From assembly GCF_014132355.1 (NCBI RefSeq), contig NZ_BLZO01000171.1:52837-116836 (forward strand): a stretch of 64,000 nt of DNA. The letters are read 5' to 3'. Positions 38,154 to 59,355 of this stretch are shown one piece after another (position 1 is the stretch's first letter; every line of letters starts with the position of its first letter). Position numbers and translations under genes: made by a program. Source of the stretch: Okeania sp. KiyG1 (GTDB lineage: Bacteria; Cyanobacteriota; Cyanobacteriia; Cyanobacteriales; Microcoleaceae). The notes below the pieces were generated by a model that was not told the DNA's origin, made no database searches, and saw nothing but the letters and a program-made list of their open reading frames with translations.

Positions 38154-38531
38154 TTAATAATGAATAATGAATAATTAATAATTAATAATGGATGAGTTTA
38201 ATTCTTTAATTGTTTATTGTTAATTGTTGAAAAGCAGTTTAATAATGAATGAATTTAATTCTTTAATTGTTCATTTTTGAAAAAGAGCTTAATAATCTAT
38301 GCCGATGATAACTGATAACTGATAACTGATAACTGAAAAAGGGGGATTGACAAAAAAATTTGACATGGTACTATAAGCATAATGGAAAAGGTGCGCTCAT
38401 ATATACTCAAATAAATTTGGCCTAAAAAAACTATTTTCCTGCTAGGCACTATGAGAGCATTGACTTAATCAGAGAATAACGATATAATACGCTCTTAAGC
38501 ATACTTTTATACAGTCTGCACTCACCCGCAA
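38154..38531. other. Spacer and left end of the tnpB element
   Basis: AT-rich with (ataatga)-like and 'tgataactgataactgata' heptamer tracts (about 38305-38335). The 120 bases before tnpB ('gctaggcactatgagagc' onwards) may be the left end of the IS element, but I see no clear hairpin there. Confidence 0.4.
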
Positions 38532-40493
38532 ATGAAATCCATTAGAACAAAGCTGAAACTTAATAATAAACAGAAAACTCTGATGGCTCAACACGCTGGC
38601 TATTCACGCTGGTGTTATAACTGGGGTTTAAGTCTTTGGAATCAAGCATACACTGATGGGTATAAACCAAACACCCGTAAGCTAAGAGAGGTTTTTACCA
38701 ATCACACAAAACCACTTTATCCTTGGATGAAAAACTTGTCATCTAAAGTTTATCAATATGCTTTTATTAACTTGGGTGAAGCATTTAAAAGGTTCTTCCA
38801 AGGATTGGGTAAACGCCCAAGGTTTAAGAAGAAAGGTAAGTTTGATTCATTCACAATTGATAATTGTGGAAAACCCATAGAATTAAATGGGTGGAATCAT
38901 AAACTACCTTTTATTGGTATCGTGAAAACTTATGAACCAATTGAAGCAACAACTCAAAAAATAACTATCAGCAGACAAGCTGGTGATTGGTACTTAAGTT
39001 TGAGCCATGAATTTAGTGCAACTCCCACACCAAAAACTACTGATGTAGTAGGTGTAGACTTAGGTGTGAAAACCTTAGCTACACTAAGTGATGGAAAAGT
39101 ATTTGAAAGTGTGAGAGCGTATCAGAAATTTGAAGCCAAGTTGTCAAGAGAGCAATATCTAAATCGTCATAAACAGGTGGGCTCTGCTAATTGGAGAAAA
39201 GCACAACTTAAGATAGCTAGGTTGCATAGAAAAGTAGCAAACATCCGTCAAGACGCACTTCATAAACTGACAGCATACTTAGCCAAAGTGCGACTCGTTC
39301 CTGTTAGGAGCCTCTAGAAACTAGAGGGGTATGAACAGGGTTCAAAGAGCAATTAAGCTCAATGAATAACTGAGTCACGGATGTGGGTGAAAGTCCCACC
39401 TGCCAAGGGAAGGCAGACTCCCGACCTGGCCACACCGAGCTAGACCTTTCCACTAGCAGAGTGAAGCTGGCAACAGGCCCCAACCAGAGCGTATAGTGGT
39501 AGGCACACTGGGGGTAATGGGGAGACGGCATGGGTACCGGGGCGGAATGTCCTGAAAAAGCGCCTCAAAGTACGGCAAGAACCACCTCTTATCTCTTGAC
39601 CGCACACGAGGAAATCCCGCGTAATATTTTGGCATTAGACGCATCCCTGGGAATCGTGTAGGCGAATTGGACAGCCCTAAACCGTCAAAATAATCTGTAA
39701 CTCGGAACGAGGAAAAACGGCAAGTGAGTCTGACTAAAATAGGTTATTTAGTTAGTAGGAGGGAAGCTCGGAATTCTCACTTGACGGGTAGGATGGGGGA
39801 ACAGAATTGCCCCCGGCAGTCGAGAAACGGTAGTTGGATAGGTGATGATGCTTAGACACCTAGAGTGAAGCTCGCTGAAACTATGCGTACAGGGCAGAAG
39901 CTTTTAACCTGTAATTGCCTTGCTCGTTAGTCGAATGCAAAGCGACCCGGAAGCAGAAGCTCCAAGGCGGTAGGATTAGACACTCCTTGAAAACAATAGT
40001 GGAAGATTAGGAATCACTGGACTCTGACCAAGTTTAGTCTTAATCAAAGGATTTTGTATCTCACATGATACGTTGCCATAGACTGCTAGGAGCCTTGTGC
40101 GGTGAAAGTCGCACGCAGGGTTTTGAAGTAGAGGTGCGGGCGGTAATACGCCACATCGACTATAACAACCACGGCAGTATTGCCATAGAAGATTTAAACG
40201 TCAGAGGAATGTTAGCTAACCATAAGCTAGCTAAATCAATAACCGACCAAGGATTTTACGAGTTTAGGCGACAGCTTAAATATAAATGCAAATGGTACGG
40301 AAGTGAATTAGTAGTAGTAGATAGATTTTTTCCATCGTCAAAGACTTGCTCAAACTGCGGTCATGTTCAAGATATGCCGTTAAATCTAAGAACTTATGAC
40401 TGCCCTGATTGTGGCATATCTATAGACCGGGATTTAAACGCAAGTATAAATTTAAGAAATGCGGTCGGCTCGGTCGTAAATGCCTGTGGATGA
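38532..40493 (+). CDS. tnpB: TnpB (OrfB) split by an ORF-less group II intron
   Basis: Exon 1 (38532-39287, 252 codons, ending ...LTAYLAK) and exon 2 (40167-40493, starting NHGSIAIEDLNVRGM) join to a TnpB of 360 residues, a normal length. RuvC-I Asp is in 'VVGVDLGVKTLATLSDGK', RuvC-II Glu in 'IAIEDLNV', the zinc ribbon in 'SSKTCSNCGHV' and 'YDCPDCG', and the RuvC-III Asp in 'IDRDLNAS'. TnpB is the RNA-guided nuclease of IS200/IS605 elements. All catalytic residues are present, so the spliced product could be active. No tnpA is adjacent. The downstream DNA lacks the 'gatgtcaa' right end seen elsewhere, so the element's boundary is unclear. Confidence 0.88.
39288..40166 (+). ncRNA. ORF-less group II intron in tnpB
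   Basis: The 5' end GTGCGACTCG fits GUGYG. Domain V is visible at about 40090-40124 ('gagccttgtgcggtgaaag' with 'tcgcacgcaggg' on the other strand), followed by domain VI (about 40125-40166) with an unpaired A near the end and a 3' terminus ...TATAAC (AY). Removing 879 bases restores the tnpB frame exactly between Lys252 and Asn253. The interior contains no ORF longer than about 75 codons, so splicing needs no encoded maturase or uses one in trans, such as that of a relative of the truncated copy at 1046-2360. Confidence 0.87.
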
Positions 40494-40607
40494 GTAACCG
40501 CCAACGGCCTCAGTGGAAGCAGGAAGTAAACATCAAATTGTCACGTTATGTGACGCTTTGTATCAGTTTTATAGAGCAGGAAGTCTGATAACTGAATAAC
40601 TGAAATT

Positions 40608-42431
40608 ATGCAGTCTGGAAGAATCCTGAAACAACGTTACGAAATTATTAAAAAAATCGGAAGTGGAAATTTCGGGGATACCTACTTGGCTCAAGATTTA
40701 CACTTACCGGGAAACCCAAAATGTGTAGTCAAACATCTCAAACCTAAAGTTCCAGACCCAGGAGTTTTGCCTGTCGCTCAAAAGTTGTTTGAGAGAGAAG
40801 CAGAGACTTGATACAAATTAGGGCAAGACTCAGACCAAATACCAAAATTATTTGCCCATTTCCAGGAAGGAACGGAATTTTACTTAGTACAGGAATATAT
40901 AGAAGGACAAGATATAAGTAAAGAACTGACGCCGGGGAAAAAATTAAGCGAGTCTTACACTATTGCTTTACTCAAAGGAATATTAGAAGCATTAGCAGTA
41001 GCTCATCAAAATAATATAATTCACCGAGATATTAAGCCACAAAATTTGATGCGTCGGAAGTCAGATAGCAAAATAGTATTGATAGATTTTGGGGCAGTAA
41101 AAGAAATAAGTGTATTAACTACAAGTCAACAACCAGGTACAACAACTTTAACTATTGCAGTCGGAACTCCTGGATATATGCCAAGTGAGCAAAGTAATGG
41201 TAAACCAAAACTTAGTAGCGATATCTATGCAGTAGGAATGGTAGGAATAAAAGCACTGACTGGTAAAAACCCAGGAAATTTACCGACAGATCCAAAGACA
41301 GAAAATATTATCTGGCGCAATGAAGCGCAAGTGAGCGATCGTCTGGCAAATATATTAGATAGGATGGTACATGAATATTTTCCACAACGTTATGAAAATG
41401 CTACGGAAGTATTAGAAGCGTTAGGTTTTATCACTCCACCAACACCAAAACCTACACCAGCACCTACCCCTCCACCAAAATCACAAGTTCCCACTCAGAT
41501 ACTTACTACCGTGGCAGTCAACAGTAGGGGTAAAATAATTAATCGCTCACCGACACAAACTCCTATCCCTCCAGCACAACCCAAATTTCCTATTCAGACA
41601 TTTACTACTGTCACAGTTGATAGGAAAGGAGAAATAATAAGTCGCCGTCAAGGTCAAGCAGAAGTAGTGACAGAAAACCTCGATAATGGAGTCACCCTGG
41701 AAATGGTAAAAATTCCCGGTGCTAGATTTCTCATGGGGTCTCCAGAGACAGAAGCAGGGAGAAGAGATAGTGAAGGTCCGCAACATTATGTGGATGTGCC
41801 AGAATTTTTCATGGGAAAGTATCCAGTCACTCAAGCGCAGTGGAAAGCAGTTATGGGAAAAAAGAATTTTTGGCAAGTGATTACGGGAAATAATCCTTCT
41901 AGGTTTAAAGGTGCAAACCGCCCTGTAGAAAATGTAAGTTGGTACGACGCGACAAAATTTTGTCAGAAACTCTCAGAAATAACGGGTAAAAAATATAGTT
42001 TACCTAGTGAGAGTCAGTGGGAATATGCTTGTCGAGCAGGAACAACAACACCTTTTTATTTTGGCGAAACTATAACGTCTGAGTTAGTTAACTATAATGG
42101 CAACTTTCCTTATGCTGATGCACCGAAAGGAGAATATCGTCAAGAAACAACAGATGTGGGAATTTTTCCTCCTAATGCTTTTGGTTTGTATGATATGCAC
42201 GGTAATGTCTGGGAATGGTGTCAGGATGTTTGGCATGAGAACTATAATGGTGCGCCTACTGATGGAAGTGCTTGGGAAACTGGTGGAGATAGTCATAGAA
42301 GAGTGCTCCGTGGCGGTTGCTGGTACTTCATTTCTCGGGATTGCCGTTGCGCCTGGCGTTACTACAATTTTGCGGACTTCCACTACTACGTTGTGGGTTT
42401 TCGTGTCGTCTCGTCTGTCCCTTGTTCCTAG
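40608..42431 (+). pseudogene. Ser/Thr kinase fused to FGE-sulfatase (C-type-lectin fold) domain, in-frame stop
   Basis: One frame runs for 607 residues apart from a TGA at 40809-40811 (after 'FEREAET'). N-terminus: Hanks-type kinase with Gly-loop 'IGSGNFGDTYLA', the catalytic loop 'IIHRDIKPQN' and 'LIDFGAVKE' (DFG). A Pro-rich linker follows (about residues 285-350). From about residue 361: the formylglycine-generating-enzyme-like domain 'FLMGSPETEAGRRDSEGPQH', 'PVENVSWYDAT', 'LPSESQWEYACRAG' and 'GLYDMHGNVWEWCQDVW'. The last 42 codons are a probable diversity-generating-retroelement variable region. The stop is within the kinase N-lobe and is a substitution, so only a shortened product (e.g. 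from ATG 41046) could be made unless it is an error. Kinase-FGE fusions are known DGR targets in Trichodesmium. Confidence 0.8.
42303..42425 (+). other. Probable DGR variable region (VR) with IMH-like end
   Basis: Between constant blocks 'RVLRGGCWY' and 'VGFRVVSS', codons at the sites where relatives have Asn are TAC, TTC, ATT, GAT, TAC, TAC, AAT, TTT, TTC, CAC, TAC, TAC and GTT. Every one has T or C in the third position and is varied in the first two, as expected from an adenine-mutagenised template of AAY codons. Constant codons between are Cys, Arg, Ala and Trp. The GC-richer run after it ('gtgggttttcgtgtcgtct') would be the IMH. No template repeat or DGR reverse transcriptase is in this window. 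Confidence 0.65.
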
Positions 42432-42690
42432 AATCCTTTCCCTTTGTTCTTTTCTTCTTTTACCTCTTTCCTACATTCATCCGTATATCCGTGCCCGAAT
42501 CTGTGTGTGCTGTTCTCTCTGTCCCACATCCATCCGTATATCCGTGCCATAATCCGTGTGAGCGGAGAAGTCAGGGCAAGACAAAGATTTTGCCACGGAT
42601 GCACGGATGATAGAATCTGCTTATTCGATCGCGATAACTATTTAACCGGACATGATATCGGAAGAATAGTCTCTTAACTTTTCTGCCTTG
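42432..42690. repeat. Repeat spacer downstream of the kinase-FGE gene
   Basis: A direct repeat of 'acattcatccgtatatccgt' type occurs at about 42470 and 42525 and, inverted, as 'ccacggatgcacggatga' at 42593. A MITE-B right end ('ccggacatgatatc') is at about 42648. Overlapping open frames here are products of these repeats. Confidence 0.5.
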
Positions 42691-43650
42691 TGTTACCTCA
42701 AAATGCTCACTTTTTCAGCTCGCTTCAACGGAAAAGCTGATACTTTTTCAAGAATTAAAATTGCTCAAACCATCAGAATGTCAAAGTATTGACATTGAAT
42801 CAGCAAACCCTAACTATTGTCCAATAGATCAATCAAACATCAATAATCGTGAAACACAGCGATATAGCTAATACTTTTTCCAGAATTAAAATTGCTCAAA
42901 CCAATATCAGTCGATGCTTTGAGAATTAATCAGCAAACTCTAACTATTGTCCAATAGATCAATCAAACATCAATAATCGTGAAACACAGCGATATAGCTA
43001 ATACTTTTTCCAGAATTAAAATTGCTCAAACCAATATCAGTCGATGCTTTGAGAATTAATCAGCAAACTCTAACTATTGTCCAATAGATCAATCAAACAT
43101 CAATAATCGTGAAACACAGCGATATAGCTGATAATTTTTCCAGAATTAAAATTGCTCAAACCAATATAAGTCGATACTTTGAGATGGAATCAGCACACCT
43201 TAACTATTGGACTGACACAGCTAAAACTGTGCAGAGCGATTATTGGTGCGGGGGCGGGTTTACCAGGTCCTGGGTAAAACCATTAACTTAACGCGGAACC
43301 CGCCCCTACCCGATGCACCATTTTAGGCGTGTCACGCCACTATTGTCCAATAGATAAATCAAACATCCATAATCGCCAAACACAGCGATATAGCTGATAT
43401 TTCCAGAATTCAAATTGCTCAAACCATTAGAATGTAAATGCTTTGACATTGAATCAGCACACCTTAACTATTGGACTGACACAGCTAAAACTGTGCAGAG
43501 CGATTATTGGTGCGGGGGCGGGTTTACCAGGTCCTGGGTAAAACCATTAACTTAACGCGGAACCCGCCCCTACCCGATGCACCATTTTAGGCGTGTCACG
43601 CCACTATTGTCCAATAGATAAATCAAACATCAATCTATTTTTTTATTACG
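42691..43650 (+). repeat. Compound tandem array: 130-bp units and nested MITE-E
   Basis: The unit of 130 bases starts with 'actattgtccaatagatcaa', includes 'cacagcgatatagcta' and 'ccagaattaaaattgctc', and ends with the MITE-A-like 'aatcagcaaa'. It is present at 42813, 42943 and 43073. Two further units carry an insertion of about 130 bases (43199-43331 and 43460-43596) with inverted ends 'ggactgacacagctaaaact' and 'caccattttaggcgtgtcac' (MITE-E), giving a 264-base period. The palindrome is the inverse of the one in the 26137-27056 array. Confidence 0.85.
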
Positions 43651-54102: not shown

Positions 54103-55881
54103 CTACGCTGGATAAATACGCAGACGTCGGTTAGGCTCATCTCCAAAACTAGAAGACTTCAAGCGATAATGCTCCACAAGTTCATGCTGCATCTTCCGCA
54201 CCTTTGGAGACCGTGGCAAAAGTTCCACAGGTTGCCCCTTTGGAATCACAATTTGCTCCACTGCTAACCGTGCTTCCTCCAAAGCCTCCATCTCATCTTC
54301 CGAAGCTGAAGCAGCAAACAAATTCAAGTCAGCAAACTCAGGAGTGCTAGGATCTTCCATATCCAATAACCGTCGCAGTGCCTTAGCAATTTGAGGCAAA
54401 CCACTATTCTTAATCACATGAATAGGCACATGACGAGCCTTAGCAATATGCCGTAACTTAGACTGTTTTCTGGTGTGCGTTCGCAAAGCCAACACCACAT
54501 CCGCACTATCAATATCCTTAGTCAAAACCACAGGCAAACCCAAAGTACTAATCACCTGTTCCATTTGATGACGTGGAATTGCATAAGGATAAATATGCAA
54601 AGGTAAATCCTCACCATTCGGACCCGTCGCCTGAGCTTCCCAACGCCCTACATTACCATTACCATTAGAAAACATCCCATTTCCCGAGAAAGACTCATCC
54701 AATAACTCTTCAAAAGACTTAGACTCAGAAAACTCTACAGGTTGATTAACTTGACCTGTATTAGGCAATGGCATAATATAACCAGAATCACGAAAACCAC
54801 CACGAGAAGTCAACATTGCCCCTGACTGTCCCAATAGCGCTCCCGCATTCTGATTAACACCCCCACCCAATCTTGGAGTACCATTATACTCTCGTGTGAT
54901 CTTCACCTCACCATTCTCATCCACAGTCCTCACTTGTGGATTAGGTTTCTGCCCCCGCAACAAAGCATCAACAGTATCAGCAACCTGTTCGTGAACCACC
55001 CAACGTTGTCTTTCCAACATTTCCACAGCAATTTCAAAAGTAGGCGGTGCTTTACGTTCCAGAACAGTTTTTTGAGAACCCCGACGTCGTGCCTCATCAT
55101 CACCCAAAGTTACAGCCTGAATACCCCCAATTAAATCGGATAGAGTTGGATTTTTTACCAAATTTTCCATCTGATTACCATGAGCAGTTCCCACTAACTG
55201 CACGCCACGCTCTGCAATAGTCCTCGCTGCCAGAGCCTCCAATTCCGTACCAATCTCATCAATCACAATCACCTCTGGCATATGATTTTCCACCGCCTCA
55301 ATCATCACTTGATGCTGTTGTTCCGGGCGAGCAACTTGCATCCGACGGGCACGACCAATAGCAGGGTGAGGAACATCTCCATCCCCAGCAATTTCATTAG
55401 AGCTATCAATAATCACCACCCGTTTTTCTAAATCATCAGCCAGCACCCGTGCAATTTCTCGTAGTGCCGTTGTTTTTCCTACACCAGGGCGACCGAGCAT
55501 CAAAATCGACCTTCCGGTTTCCACTAACTCGCGAATCATACCAATTGTGCCAAAGACTGCCCGCCCCACTCGACAAGTTAAACCAATAACTTCTCCCGTG
55601 CGATTGCGAATAGCACTAATCCGGTGTAGCGTTTGCTCAATACCTGCTCGATTATCGCTGCTAAAATGACCAACTCGTTCTATGGAATAATTGAGGTCTT
55701 TTCTAGAAATAGGAATTTCGCCCAGGTATTCTGCATGGGATGGAAAACGAGCTTCTGGGAGACGACCCAGATCCATCACAATTTCGATCAGGTTATTTCG
55801 CTGTTGATGTTGCAGTAGAGGCCGTCTAACTTGGTCTGGTACAATTTCTAGTAATCTATAAAGGTCGTCTGTTATCTGCAT
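54103..55881 (-). CDS. Ycf45-like AAA+ ATPase with R3H-type C-terminus
   Basis: This 592-residue protein belongs to the Ycf45/SpoIIIAA-like ATPase family found in cyanobacteria and some plastid genomes. Walker A 'LMLGRPGVGKTT' is near residue 130, Walker B 'VIVIDEIGTE' near 205, and 'GTAHGNQMENL' supplies the sensor region. The C-terminal part (about 435-592) includes a region that resembles an R3H/nucleic-acid-binding module ('LVEHYRLKSSSFGDEPNRRL'). The function is unproven; an ATP-dependent action on nucleic acid or a membrane complex has been suggested for relatives. It starts at ATG 55881 and is intact. Confidence 0.85.
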   Translation of the reverse strand: MQITDDLYRLLEIVPDQVRRPLLQHQQRNNLIEIVMDLGRLPEARFPSHAEYLGEIPISRKDLNYSIERVGHFSSDNRAGIEQTLHRISAIRNRTGEVIGLTCRVGRAVFGTIGMIRELVETGRSILMLGRPGVGKTTALREIARVLADDLEKRVVIIDSSNEIAGDGDVPHPAIGRARRMQVARPEQQHQVMIEAVENHMPEVIVIDEIGTELEALAARTIAERGVQLVGTAHGNQMENLVKNPTLSDLIGGIQAVTLGDDEARRRGSQKTVLERKAPPTFEIAVEMLERQRWVVHEQVADTVDALLRGQKPNPQVRTVDENGEVKITREYNGTPRLGGGVNQNAGALLGQSGAMLTSRGGFRDSGYIMPLPNTGQVNQPVEFSESKSFEELLDESFSGNGMFSNGNGNVGRWEAQATGPNGEDLPLHIYPYAIPRHQMEQVISTLGLPVVLTKDIDSADVVLALRTHTRKQSKLRHIAKARHVPIHVIKNSGLPQIAKALRRLLDMEDPSTPEFADLNLFAASASEDEMEALEEARLAVEQIVIPKGQPVELLPRSPKVRKMQHELVEHYRLKSSSFGDEPNRRLRIYPA

Positions 55882-56105: not shown

Positions 56106-57328
56106 CTAATTCCTCATTCTACTGAGATGATCCGATTTTTTGATTTGGGAAACCAGAGAGTCAGCTAAACTGACAGCTTCCCAAAGAAGTTCCGGTAAAA
56201 CTTCCAGCTTTGTTAGCTGGGAATCATTAATGAGTTCTTGGGCATTGCTAGTTGTGCTGTAGACAGATTCAATTGCCTGCAGCTGTGATTTGTGCATTGT
56301 TTCTAATTTTTCCAAAATTGGTGACAACAAAACGCGGGCATAGCTACCATAAGCTACACCAGATACAAATCTATTTTCCGGAATATAAGTATTTAAATTT
56401 TTAGCAGAGTCTTCCTGTTTGTTATTCTCAGAAGCTAGCAAACCTTTAGCAACAAGCTTGGCTACAGTAGAATTATTTGTTCCTCCTGCTAGCTGTACAT
56501 ACCCTGGTAGTTTGGCATTCAACACCTTTTGACTCAATACGATCGCCGCCATTGTGCTACCTGCCCCAATATCTCCACTCATCGGCCTACCATCAGTTTG
56601 CCAGATTAGAGTACAAGGAAGAGGAGAGATAATTTCATACAAATTTTGTAAATATTCTACCAGCCCTTCTCCATCAGGGCAACTAATAGCAATTAGTTTT
56701 AATTGATTTACCCAAGGTTTTATGCTTTTCCAGAGTCGCTGAAAATCACTTTCTCTTCCCACTTGGGTGTGAATTTCAATGGCATCTACACCAGTCTGCA
56801 ATACTAATGATGCAATAGAAGTAGGAGTGGATACATAAGAACGAGCCTGTATTAGTTGCTTAGGACATACAGACAAACATCTTCCACAACCGTAGCAAAG
56901 TTCATCAATAACCCCTGAATTACCAGAAGTTATACTATCTCTATCTTCAGAAAAAACTATAGCATCTGCCGGACAGACTCTCTCACAAGGTCGCCAGCAG
57001 TCTGTGGGGCAAACAGTAGGGTCAAACTCAGCTTTCCGGAAATGAGGATCTTCTCCATCATTGATACTTACCATTATCCATGGTAACGTTTGGTAGCCAA
57101 ATCCCTGATACTTGGCCCAATCTTGGAGACCACTTGCAACCTGTAAAGCCTGTCCAGCAGAAGCGATCGCCGCCGGATCGGCAGCCACATCAATACAATC
57201 TGCCCCTGCCAAAGTATAAGCTAATGTTAAATTTCTTACTGTTGGCAGGTGTTGGAAGCTGGCCCCACAGATTAACTTAAACCAGTGGCCTTCTTTTAGC
57301 GAAATTAGGGAGAATAGCGTTCTCTCAC
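56106..57328 (-). CDS. ldpA: LdpA, iron-sulfur protein of the circadian clock input
   Basis: The 368-codon open frame from TTG 57212 lacks the true N-terminus. Upstream codons in the same frame (57317-57213) read 'LFSLISLKEGHWFKLICGAS' and on, which is the conserved start of LdpA. No start codon is in frame there; GTG 57326-57328 would fit if one base were restored near 57318, giving about 407 residues. Two ferredoxin-like clusters are seen: 'CPTDCWRPCERVCP' and 'CYGCGRCLSVCP', for 4Fe-4S centres. LdpA senses redox state and adjusts the KaiC-based clock period with light. It is 70 bases downstream of ndhN, a pairing usual in cyanobacteria. Confidence 0.85.
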
Positions 57329-57398
57329 GCTTATATACTAGAGCCTTTAGCTCAAAAAAAATTGAAGTACAAAGATAAAATGTTAGCTCAAAAACTCT

Positions 57399-57875
57399 TT
57401 AGCCGGGTACCAAAGCATTTTGAAGTGGTGTCCATCTAAAGAAGCGATCGCCACCCATTTCCACTATCACCTTAACTCGTGGTTCTGATTTAGGTAGGAC
57501 AGTTAAATACTCAATTTCTTGACTAGATAGAATCTGACCTTCTATAATCCACAAAACCAAACCCTTAGCTTTAGGTGGTAACTGTTCCAGTCGATAGCTG
57601 ACAATTGGCGGTACATAGTAAACATAACCAACTGCTGGGCCATTACTCATACTTTTCTTACCTAAGTGAGGAGGTCTAACTCCATGCACCCCTGTCAGAT
57701 ACATGGCCAAATCCCCAAGACCTCTAGCAGTAATATTGTGACTTACATAGCCAGAAGCCCTTAACCGACGTTGATAACGCCCTTCAAACCCTCCTTCCAA
57801 AGGAACATAAACGGCCAAAGACCCAGACTTCTCCAAATCTTTAATCATTCCTCGACCAGTCGTAATCAGTGCCAT
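57399..57875 (-). CDS. ndhN: NAD(P)H-quinone oxidoreductase subunit N
   Basis: The 158-residue protein is NdhN, a subunit of the peripheral arm of the cyanobacterial NDH-1 complex, which drives cyclic electron flow and respiration on the thylakoid. Recognisable blocks are 'YVPLEGGFEGRYQRRLR', 'GYVYYVPPIV', 'LVLWIIEGQILS' and 'VIVEMGGDRFFRW'. Length and start (ATG 57875, 'MALITTG') are normal for the family. It is followed by ldpA. Confidence 0.95.
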   Translation of the reverse strand: MALITTGRGMIKDLEKSGSLAVYVPLEGGFEGRYQRRLRASGYVSHNITARGLGDLAMYLTGVHGVRPPHLGKKSMSNGPAVGYVYYVPPIVSYRLEQLPPKAKGLVLWIIEGQILSSQEIEYLTVLPKSEPRVKVIVEMGGDRFFRWTPLQNALVPG

Positions 57876-58396
57876 GCTTAATCTTGTTCCTAATTTTTAG
57901 ATTCTAGGTTATTACATTTGGTCTACATTATAGTTGTTTAAACCAAAGATACTTGTGTTCCTAGCGACCTCAAAAAAATTATTTCAACTACTAGACAAGT
58001 CCTAGTAAATACTATACAATTATATATTGTCGCCAAAAAGTGATCTAATAGGTAAGTATGGCCTAAATTAACCCTATTATTGAGTTCAATACTTAGATTT
58101 GGGTGATACAAAGGTTTAGTAAATTATTAGTTAGCTAACTATTTCAGGTGTAAAAATCAAGTAATAGTCAGTTGTGTAAATTTATGTACTTCCTAGAATA
58201 AAAGGATACTGATTAGCAAGCTACTCAAGTCCTGGCGACCATAAAGCTAAGAACTAGAGCTAAAGACAAAAAGCTAAAAAATAATAGCTGGTAAATATAA
58301 ATATTATCGTTATCATTCAACGATGATATTCTATTGTCATGCTGAGTATTAGTTCCATAAATTCTCTAGTACTTTAAGAGAAAAATTAGCTACATC
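57876..58396. other. 520-bp non-coding spacer upstream of ndhN
   Basis: AT-rich. It must hold the ndhN promoter on the minus strand. I see no repeat family of the window and no credible ORF. Confidence 0.4.
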
Positions 58397-58890
58397 GCCG
58401 AGAAGCCTCACGCCATATTTGAAAAATTGGTGTGAGATGAATCGGTGGTAAATTAATTGGATTCGATGTCCAAGTCCAATTGATTGACAATGCCATTCTG
58501 GAGTTTTTCACCATTATTTAAAAATTTCTGTTTCTGGTGGGAAAATCAAGCTTAAAACTTGGGCAATCAACTGGATGGGGACAAATTCTAACTATTTTAA
58601 CTGTCAAAGCTGAAAATGCTGGATAGAAGACTATAGCTGTGAATCCTCAAAAGACCAGCCAAAATTGTTCAAATTGTGGTAAAAAAGTCCCCAAAAAATT
58701 ATCAGAAAGAACTCATTCTTGTGCCAATTGCAGTGTGATTATTGACTGCGATTTGAATGCAGCAATAAATATCAAAAATAGGGCGGTAGGGCATTCCGTT
58801 CTTAAAGCTTGTGGAGTCCGACGCAATAGCGGGACTGGGAAACGAGAAGCCCACACCATACCTTAAGGTTGGCGTGGGAGTATGTCACAA
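58397..58890 (+). mobile_element. IS605-type remnant: left-end hairpin, tnpB C-terminus, right end
   Basis: Bases about 58400-58440 fold into a hairpin (cctcacgccat ... ttggtgtgagatga), a likely left end. From about 58565 the frame reads 'WGQILTILTVKAENAG', an in-frame TAG, then 'KTIAVNPQKTSQNCSNCGKK', 'THSCANC' (zinc ribbon) and 'DCDLNAAINI' (RuvC-III Asp), stop at 58864-58866. The right end 'gaagcccacacc' with 'ggttggcgtgggagtatgtc' follows to about 58887. The N-terminal two-thirds of tnpB is deleted, so this is a decayed element. Confidence 0.75.
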
Positions 58891-59355
58891 TCAAGACTAA
58901 TACAAGCTTAAGTCATTAGTTAAATCTAGCAACGCTACTGGTTTAATACTAATAATATGTTTAATTCTGATGTTATTTTAAAAAGCATCAAAGTTGATCA
59001 TAAACTTGGTGAAAGCAGTAAAACCTATCCTAATACAATCAAACAGAAGTTAACTATTACTAACAATAGACTTAGGGCGATCGCTCCTAAGAAATAGTGA
59101 TGAAATTAACCACTGTTGTAATTAAGATATAAGGATAAGTTTAAACTATTATTTATGTGTAAATAATATGATTTATTAATTATTAGGTACAAAACTGTCT
59201 GTTAAAAAAATAAATTATTTCAACTAAAAAGCGTTTCCTGACGGAATGCTCCGCAAACAGATACCTAATACAAATTTTTAGGCTAATAGCTGATAGCTGA
59301 CAGCTAGTAAAAACATTATTTTTGTAGTGCATAAATAAAGTATAGGAGAGCGACA
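58891..59355. other. Spacer upstream of the S10 operon
   Basis: AT-rich, 465 bases, with one HIP1-like site (gcgatcgct) near 59079 and a short dispersed repeat at about 59232-59265 ('cctgacggaatgctccgcaa'). The operon promoter should lie here. 'ggagag' at 59344-59349 is the rplC ribosome binding site. Confidence 0.45.

Follow-up and report, generated by a model that had tools for sequence, protein, structure and literature searches.

A kinase-FGE gene of Okeania ends in a variable region that is probably the fossil target of a diversity-generating retroelement

The analysis of a 64,000-nucleotide stretch of the Okeania sp. KiyG1 genome (hereafter the window; C171:52837-116836 of assembly G000) points to the 3' end of a kinase-FGE gene as a remote target of an Okeania/Trichodesmium-type diversity-generating retroelement (DGR). 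This target is now orphaned, and its variable region (VR) is most likely the fossil of an earlier diversification, a reading to which we assign a probability of roughly 0.8. On this reading, the RNA of a template repeat (TR) resembling TR1 of a sister genome would have been copied by a DGR reverse transcriptase (RT) with random bases at adenines, and the cDNA would then have replaced the gene's 3' end from 42306 to about 42431. Between 16 and 20 template adenines would thereby have been changed, while the codons kept their third bases and the FGE fold its Gly/Cys/Arg frame. The system would later have been stranded as the RT was split by a transposase-bearing insertion, the gene was stopped, and a tnpB unit came to lie between a promoter-like element and the gene. 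We infer that diversification preceded stranding and that the DGR system is presently inactive at this gene.

The gene (40608-42431, + strand) had been described as a kinase-FGE fusion in the initial annotation, made from the sequence alone, and both its translation and its Pfam content bear this out, a Ser/Thr kinase (PF00069) preceding an FGE-sulfatase domain (PF03781). That annotation did not mention an in-frame TGA at 40809-40811, which interrupts the kinase domain, so the uninterrupted domain expected of a functional Hanks-type kinase is not encoded. The C-terminal part of the Pkinase profile is matched at 40830-41393 (+; E 2.6e-27, residues 7-194 of the translation of 40812-42428) and carries the motifs HRDIKPQN and DFG, and the 67-aa piece 5' of the TGA, taken alone, gave no Pfam match. 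The FGE-sulfatase match (41700-42410, +; E 4.9e-60) reaches residue 533 of 539, which would place the VR within the FGE fold at the 3' end of the gene; we take this fold to be C-type-lectin-like. A phmmer comparison with the PDB matched the domain to 2y3c, a DGR variable protein (variable protein 1) of Treponema denticola (E 6e-20), and the proposed C-type-lectin/FGE fold at the very C-terminus is thus supported by sequence. By sequence, the domain also resembles PvdO and formylglycine-generating enzymes (FGE) among PDB relatives, and a sensor role for it may be envisaged. Its closest named relatives, among the best 80 of 141 stretches (79 loci), are Okeania and Trichodesmium records.

The NNY-rich stretch reported at 42303-42425 is present there: NNY codons account for 34 of its 41, compared with 221 of the 497 codons of the reading frame upstream (binomial p = 5e-7). 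NNY richness alone is nevertheless a weak sign because the nearest upstream codons are also enriched (25 NNY in the 40 codons directly before the stretch), whereas the comparison with templates offers a strong one. Five non-coding templates, two from the sister genome G004 and one each from G011, G076, and contig C43 of the own genome, align to the VR without gaps over 105 nt. The VR core, of TR1/TR2 type, comprises 35 codons at 42306-42410 (+), as delimited by the adenine footprint against TR1 of G004 and by orthologue comparison, and template homology continues to the stop codon at 42431, which corrects the earlier extent. In confirmed TR-VR pairs homology extends through the stop codon, and the less variable 3' part at 42396-42431 (+) is, by analogy with known DGRs, probably the side on which mutagenic homing is initiated.

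TR1 of G004 fits the window VR best among the five templates, with changes at 20 of 30 adenines and at 8 of 75 other sites (Fisher p 2e-8; the Fisher values given here treat sites as independent). The corresponding counts were 20/30 and 10/75 for TR2 of G004, 21/31 and 10/74 for the G011 template, 20/30 and 10/75 for that of G076, and 23/33 and 15/72 for that of C43. All eight non-adenine mismatches to TR1 lie at nt 60 or beyond, the first 59 nt being exact apart from adenines; TR1 adenines are replaced by T at 15 sites, by G at 4, and by C at 1, and in columns where none of the five templates has an adenine, a base found in no template occurs at only 2 of 67. The VR thus differs from a sister-genome template at adenines and is otherwise alike, inexactly in view of those eight mismatches, and the DGR-type adenine mutagenesis proposed from the codon pattern is supported. 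The accompanying view took the variable sites to be Asn positions and the intervening codons to be constant, but the set of targets extends beyond Asn. Cys codon 5 (TGC; template AGC) and Trp codon 17 (TGG; AGG in TR1), described as constant, both have an adenine in the template, Arg codon 11 (CGG; template AGG) carries a silent A>C change at one, and Val codon 30 (GTG; template AGG) combines a template adenine with a non-adenine change at its second base. The CAC of codon 26 is not an Asn site, being TTC or CTC in G004-type templates and an unchanged CAC in the own-genome template.

This footprint is further strengthened by the sister genome, in which TR1 and TR2 flank an intact 365-aa RT open reading frame; the locus (L228, G004:C2:236000-246000) is a DGR with two templates around the RT. 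There, the best cases show no non-adenine mismatch between TR1 and its local target, and 0 and 1 between TR2 and remote targets: the DGR-adjacent gene differs from TR1 by 10 adenine changes and no others, the remote gene C24a from TR2 by 14 and none, and C250 from TR2 by 9 and 1. Two further G004 genes fit neither of its templates exactly, namely C256 (9 adenine and 5 other changes against TR1) and C24b (9 and 14 against TR1, 8 and 14 against TR2). Adenine-only change, together with action in trans, is thus seen in G004. The local genes of G011 and G076 show 2 and 5 non-adenine mismatches to their own templates, and four remote genes of these two genomes fit the templates more poorly (7-11 non-adenine mismatches).

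Templates were looked for with three DNA probes. The C43 TR was run against the own genome and against 24 genomes, a first inferred template against the own genome, and a second one against 62 genomes of the family, among them the own. None of the three found a TR1-type template in the own assembly, which is 92.4% complete, nor any template fitting the window VR at non-adenine sites; the only TR found was that of C43, which was rejected as the template of the window VR for its 15 non-adenine mismatches. Besides the window gene, the second inferred template listed 51 places in the 62 genomes, of which 45 lie in frames of at least 89 codons and are genes, while the 5 without a preceding coding frame are the five templates described above; the last, G003:C556, has a short frame, does not look like a template, and is probably a broken gene. 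An ungapped search over 105 nt gave 92 distinct candidates (gapped forms not being taken), 68 of them coding-looking; the 24 others consist of 7 TR-like sequences, these being the five used and two from more distant cyanobacteria, and 17 chance matches.

Orthologues at the same locus provide a further view of the VR, and a comparison across strains had been proposed as a check. The G017 orthologue (L189), identified by right-flank synteny (flank 81-87% identical), differs from the window VR at 26 sites, 20 of them on TR1 adenines (Fisher p 2e-9). By codon position, the differences are distributed 15/7/4 in the VR and 10/8/31 in the 583 nt upstream, where 31 of the 49 differing sites are third positions. 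Against TR1 itself, the G017 VR shows 13 adenine and 2 other changes, both of the latter (nt 60 and 76) being common to the window. The G001 orthologue (L198), with a left flank about 95% identical and a gene 91.6% identical up to 42287, behaves differently: identity to the window per 60 nt is 49-59 in the gene body, 36-38 across 42281-42400, and 54/56 at 42581-42640, and its VR, longer by 6 nt, belongs to a different type that contains Pro. This difference reads as a cassette change rather than adenine mutagenesis alone. Variation beyond template adenines, named in the initial annotation as evidence that would speak against a DGR, is therefore found in G001, but the G017 comparison shows the expected concentration at adenines.

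VR identity of the window to its two orthologues is 67% and 75%. All three orthologous genes are interrupted, each at a different place (the TGA in the window, single-base indels in L198, an in-frame TAA in L189), and these interruptions are possibly sequencing errors; L198 has no stop at the codon of the window's TGA, but is itself frameshifted. The in-frame TGA and the split RT described below could likewise represent sequencing faults, assembly faults, or population variants. The CheA-side flank was matched in G000, G001, G012, G017, and G075 among 14 genomes searched; the flank contigs of G001 and G012 end before the gene, and in G075 the flank is present and no window-type gene was matched within the 7 kb examined. 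Tandem repeats of 130 and 264 bp occupy 42735-43634, between the gene and a CheA-like gene, with similar ones in L198 and L189.

Related VRs served as controls. Across 56 of them (the coding candidates, out of 68, with Ser at codon 10, 12 being dropped; close relatives are included, so they are not independent), 664 of 1456 cells differ at adenine columns against 304 of 3920 at non-adenine columns, the scoring being restricted to columns where four templates all have A or none has A and the non-adenine count being lowered by accepting any base of any of the four. Single genes carry between 0 and 24 non-adenine changes of 70; some of them have therefore diverged strongly or derive from other templates. 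Between the window and the other 55, the VR core is 35% divergent, with mismatches by codon position of 691/499/359, and 110 upstream codons are 17% divergent, with 707/598/1668. Across the 56, AAY template codons hardly vary at their third base (T in 54/56 at codon 9 and 55/56 at codon 22). Six VR pairs between species, picked for their look-alike VRs and therefore showing that freezing occurs rather than how often, have VR identities of 97-100% with upstream identities of 93-98%, so some VRs are frozen between species. The own genome holds 31 FGE matches, 30 of them with a locus, and 21 distinct FGE genes with a VR-like C-terminus (NNY at 20 or more of 28 core codons; the overlapping C39b/c and C42a/b entries count once each), whose ends represent at least three template types as judged by eye. 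One FGE paralogue, L004 (G000:C93:175896-176036), has a deletion inside the variable part of its VR (LRGAYDYRSAW...).

The DGR of this genome (assembly of 10.98 Mb in 198 contigs) lies on the minus strand of contig C43 and comprises an FGE target gene (58256-58972), an Avd gene (NF033474, 116 bits vs a cut-off of 80), the N-terminal part of an RT (57286-57744, matching residues 3-134 of the intact 365-aa G004 RT), its C-terminal part (54915-55691, matching residues 133-361), and a non-coding TR (54661-54783). The two RT parts are separated by an insertion that encodes a DDE transposase (PF01609), which NCBIfam models place near IS701/IS4 with scores below their cut-offs. The VR of this locus differs from its TR at 14 adenines and 2 other sites. 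An RVT_1 search of the genome gave 36 matches, covered by 32 loci that were scanned in six frames for the DGR-type motif; LGNLTSQ, which we take to be the DGR RT motif, occurs in L034 only. A search with the RT piece likewise gave a single match in G000 at E <= 1e-10, the split C43 RT, so the one DGR RT found has LGNLTSQ, Avd, and TR alongside but is split by an insertion. Among the other RVT_1 matches, L028 (G000:C72:73850-74491) carries PQGSPSSPAIS, presumably a retron-like RT motif. Four contigs (L017-L020, G000:C152-C155) share one group II intron-type RT region, three at nearly equal position, and are perhaps repeated or alternative contigs.

These results qualify what had been proposed about the machinery. 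That the window holds neither TR nor DGR RT is confirmed, as scans of the window against the VR were clean and none of the listed RVT_1 or RT-piece matches falls inside it. The suggested adenine-bearing near-copy beside a DGR RT elsewhere in the genome does exist on C43, but it is of a different lineage from the window VR and its RT is interrupted. The machinery is indeed not local, but diversification in trans today would have none visible in the assembly, since the C43 TR belongs to another lineage and no DGR RT other than the interrupted one was found.

Related genomes reveal DGRs in varied states. An RT-piece search of 14 genomes gave strong matches (E <= 1e-32) in seven: G000 (split), G004 (intact), G011 (two), G073 (one in-frame TAA), G076, G022 (in two frames), and G017 (a fragment with TGA). 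Only weak matches were obtained in G002 and G012 (E 1e-11 to 1e-15, 26-31% identity), and none in G001, G003, G005, G074, and G075. Target genes are still kept in related genomes whether the DGR RT is intact, damaged, or undetected. G011 also has a second DGR (L322, G011:C237), whose RT shares 63% identity with the C43 piece and which further comprises a Pro-type template and two FGE genes with VR-like ends. Probing 14 genomes for a template of the G001-type VR gave 22 places, 3 of which are the TRs known from G004 and C43, one a non-coding template of the Pro-containing type beside this second RT at G011:C237, and 18 gene-like (two with short frames of 54 and 58 codons before the VR).

The cis context of the gene was considered on both sides. 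Directly 3' of the stop codon lies a polypyrimidine tract (42432-42481, +; 86% C+T in 50 nt). At least 75% C+T follows the stop in 33 of 52 family genes, window included (those of the 56 with enough sequence), a level of extremeness reached, counting either strand, by 1.5% of window 50-mers, and the tract is absent after TRs and common to other target genes; shared ancestry of gene ends could explain it as well as function. Hairpins and inverted repeats after the VR were discounted as a DGR signal. A stem of at least 6 was found in 14 of 51 genes, where shuffles would give 7.7, and no such stem was found after the window VR, where imperfect inverted repeats of a CATCCGT-type sequence occur (DNA folding z -2.5). 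On the 5' side, a promoter-like element (38306-38446, +) contains TTGACA-16-TACTAT at 38347-38374 and has copies 5' of kinase-FGE paralogues in several genomes, as aligned from 11 loci chosen among those with a copy; a consensus scan of the region gave 8 sites against 5.2 expected and is not evidence by itself. The element is sometimes multi-copy, with 11 matches in L130. About 118 bp separate the end of the element from the gene-proximal match in L198, compared with about 2.14 kb in the window, where an IS605-type tnpB unit intervenes (38532-40514, +; PF01385/PF07282). This tnpB is itself interrupted at about 39288-40163 by a group II intron with no listed long ORF (Rfam RF00029 at 40088-40166), and L127 carries the same tnpB uninterrupted.

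The fossil reading is favored because a fitting template was not found, the RT is split, and the gene is stopped and parted from its promoter-like element. Continuing diversification of the VR in trans, through an intact DGR (TR1-type template plus RT) that the assembly lacks, is unlikely, yet it is the alternative we take most seriously. Absence of a DGR from an assembly is weak evidence because the TR1-like DGRs of G011 and G076 sit on contigs of only 4,561 and 5,274 bp, and the present assembly might in the same way lack a second, intact DGR; moreover, the modest VR identity to the orthologues, set against the 97-100% of the six chosen pairs, points to comparatively late rewriting, and Thiohalocapsa PB-PSB1 has targets with broken local machinery that are diversified in trans (PMC10907252). 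Weighing against ongoing diversification are the single RT-piece match in the genome, split as it is, the failure of three DNA probes to find a TR1-type template, and an in-frame stop and a distance of about 2.1 kb from the promoter-like element, under which selection for diversifying should be weak.

It is quite improbable that no retroelement was involved and that recombination between paralogues and positive selection shaped the VR, as they would any rapidly evolving binding surface. The many paralogues indicated by the 31 FGE matches and the other VR type of the G001 orthologue, which resembles cassette exchange, would suit such a history, but adenine-only differences to TR1 and TR2 in G004, kept third positions, and the silent A>C change at codon 11 would not be expected from amino-acid selection, and the group possesses non-coding TRs together with a DGR RT and Avd. 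A marginally smaller chance still is given to writing of the VR from the C43 template followed by ordinary divergence. Against it stand the 15 non-adenine mismatches, of which 10 fall in the first 57 nt, a stretch free of any such mismatch to TR1, and the C43 VR, which fits the same TR with only 2; what it has in its favor is a TR in the own genome, a part of which (GCG GAC AAC CAC AAC AAC AAT) fits window codons 23-29 with adenine-only changes.

Beyond the fossil reading of the window VR, DGR targets of this group may, as a tentative and on balance doubtful proposal, change their template allegiance, through cDNA homing across lineages or through VR-FGE cassettes moving between paralogues. 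The locus studied here carries a TR1-type VR in G000 and G017 and a Pro-type VR in G001, with the gene bodies of G000 and G001 about 92% identical, and the shared 3' polypyrimidine tract is perhaps a docking site for cross-lineage homing. If template switching is true, a large stock of "frozen" receptor ends would exist in species with decayed DGRs.

The kind of target described here is already known, since remote kinase-CLec targets, nearby transposases, and degraded cyanobacterial DGRs are all in print. Kinases are reported as the commonest functional domain of cyanobacterial DGR remote targets (Vallota-Eastman et al. 2020, PMC7517822), and those variable proteins resemble ours in their kinase N-terminus, CLec/FGE C-terminus, 3'-terminal VR, position away from the DGR, and neighboring transposases. 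The same source describes a degraded DGR in Anabaena sp. 90, with the RT only and transposases on its flanks, and its main text has 0 occurrences of "Okeania"; what differs here is an Okeania-like genome with a stopped gene, a cognate template not found in the assembly, and a split RT. In the related genus, Trichodesmium erythraeum IMS101 also has remote targets, with two DGR RTs and 18 loci of TR/VR homology, at least 11 of which are described as locally hypervariable in metagenomes (PMC8867640). Its targets thus vary in nature, whereas the present case has one RT, split, and is described from an assembly. Thiohalocapsa PB-PSB1 shares many DGR targets, transposon-shaped degenerate loci, and FGE-type CLec targets with this genome, and trans diversification was inferred there where a VR equals a distant TR at all non-adenine sites (PMC10907252); the window VR, in contrast, matches no TR found in its own assembly at all such sites. 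A literature search largely confined to non-subscription sources found no paper joining Okeania with "diversity-generating."

Most worth following are the switch of VR type seen at a single locus and the different stages of DGR decay across genomes. With one DGR whose RT is interrupted and 21 VR-like FGE ends, this genome may show the fate of a broken hypermutation system. Okeania and Trichodesmium provide a natural series in which to ask what becomes of DGR-made diversity once its engine stops, be it retention, freezing, or loss, and whether another template can take over the targets.
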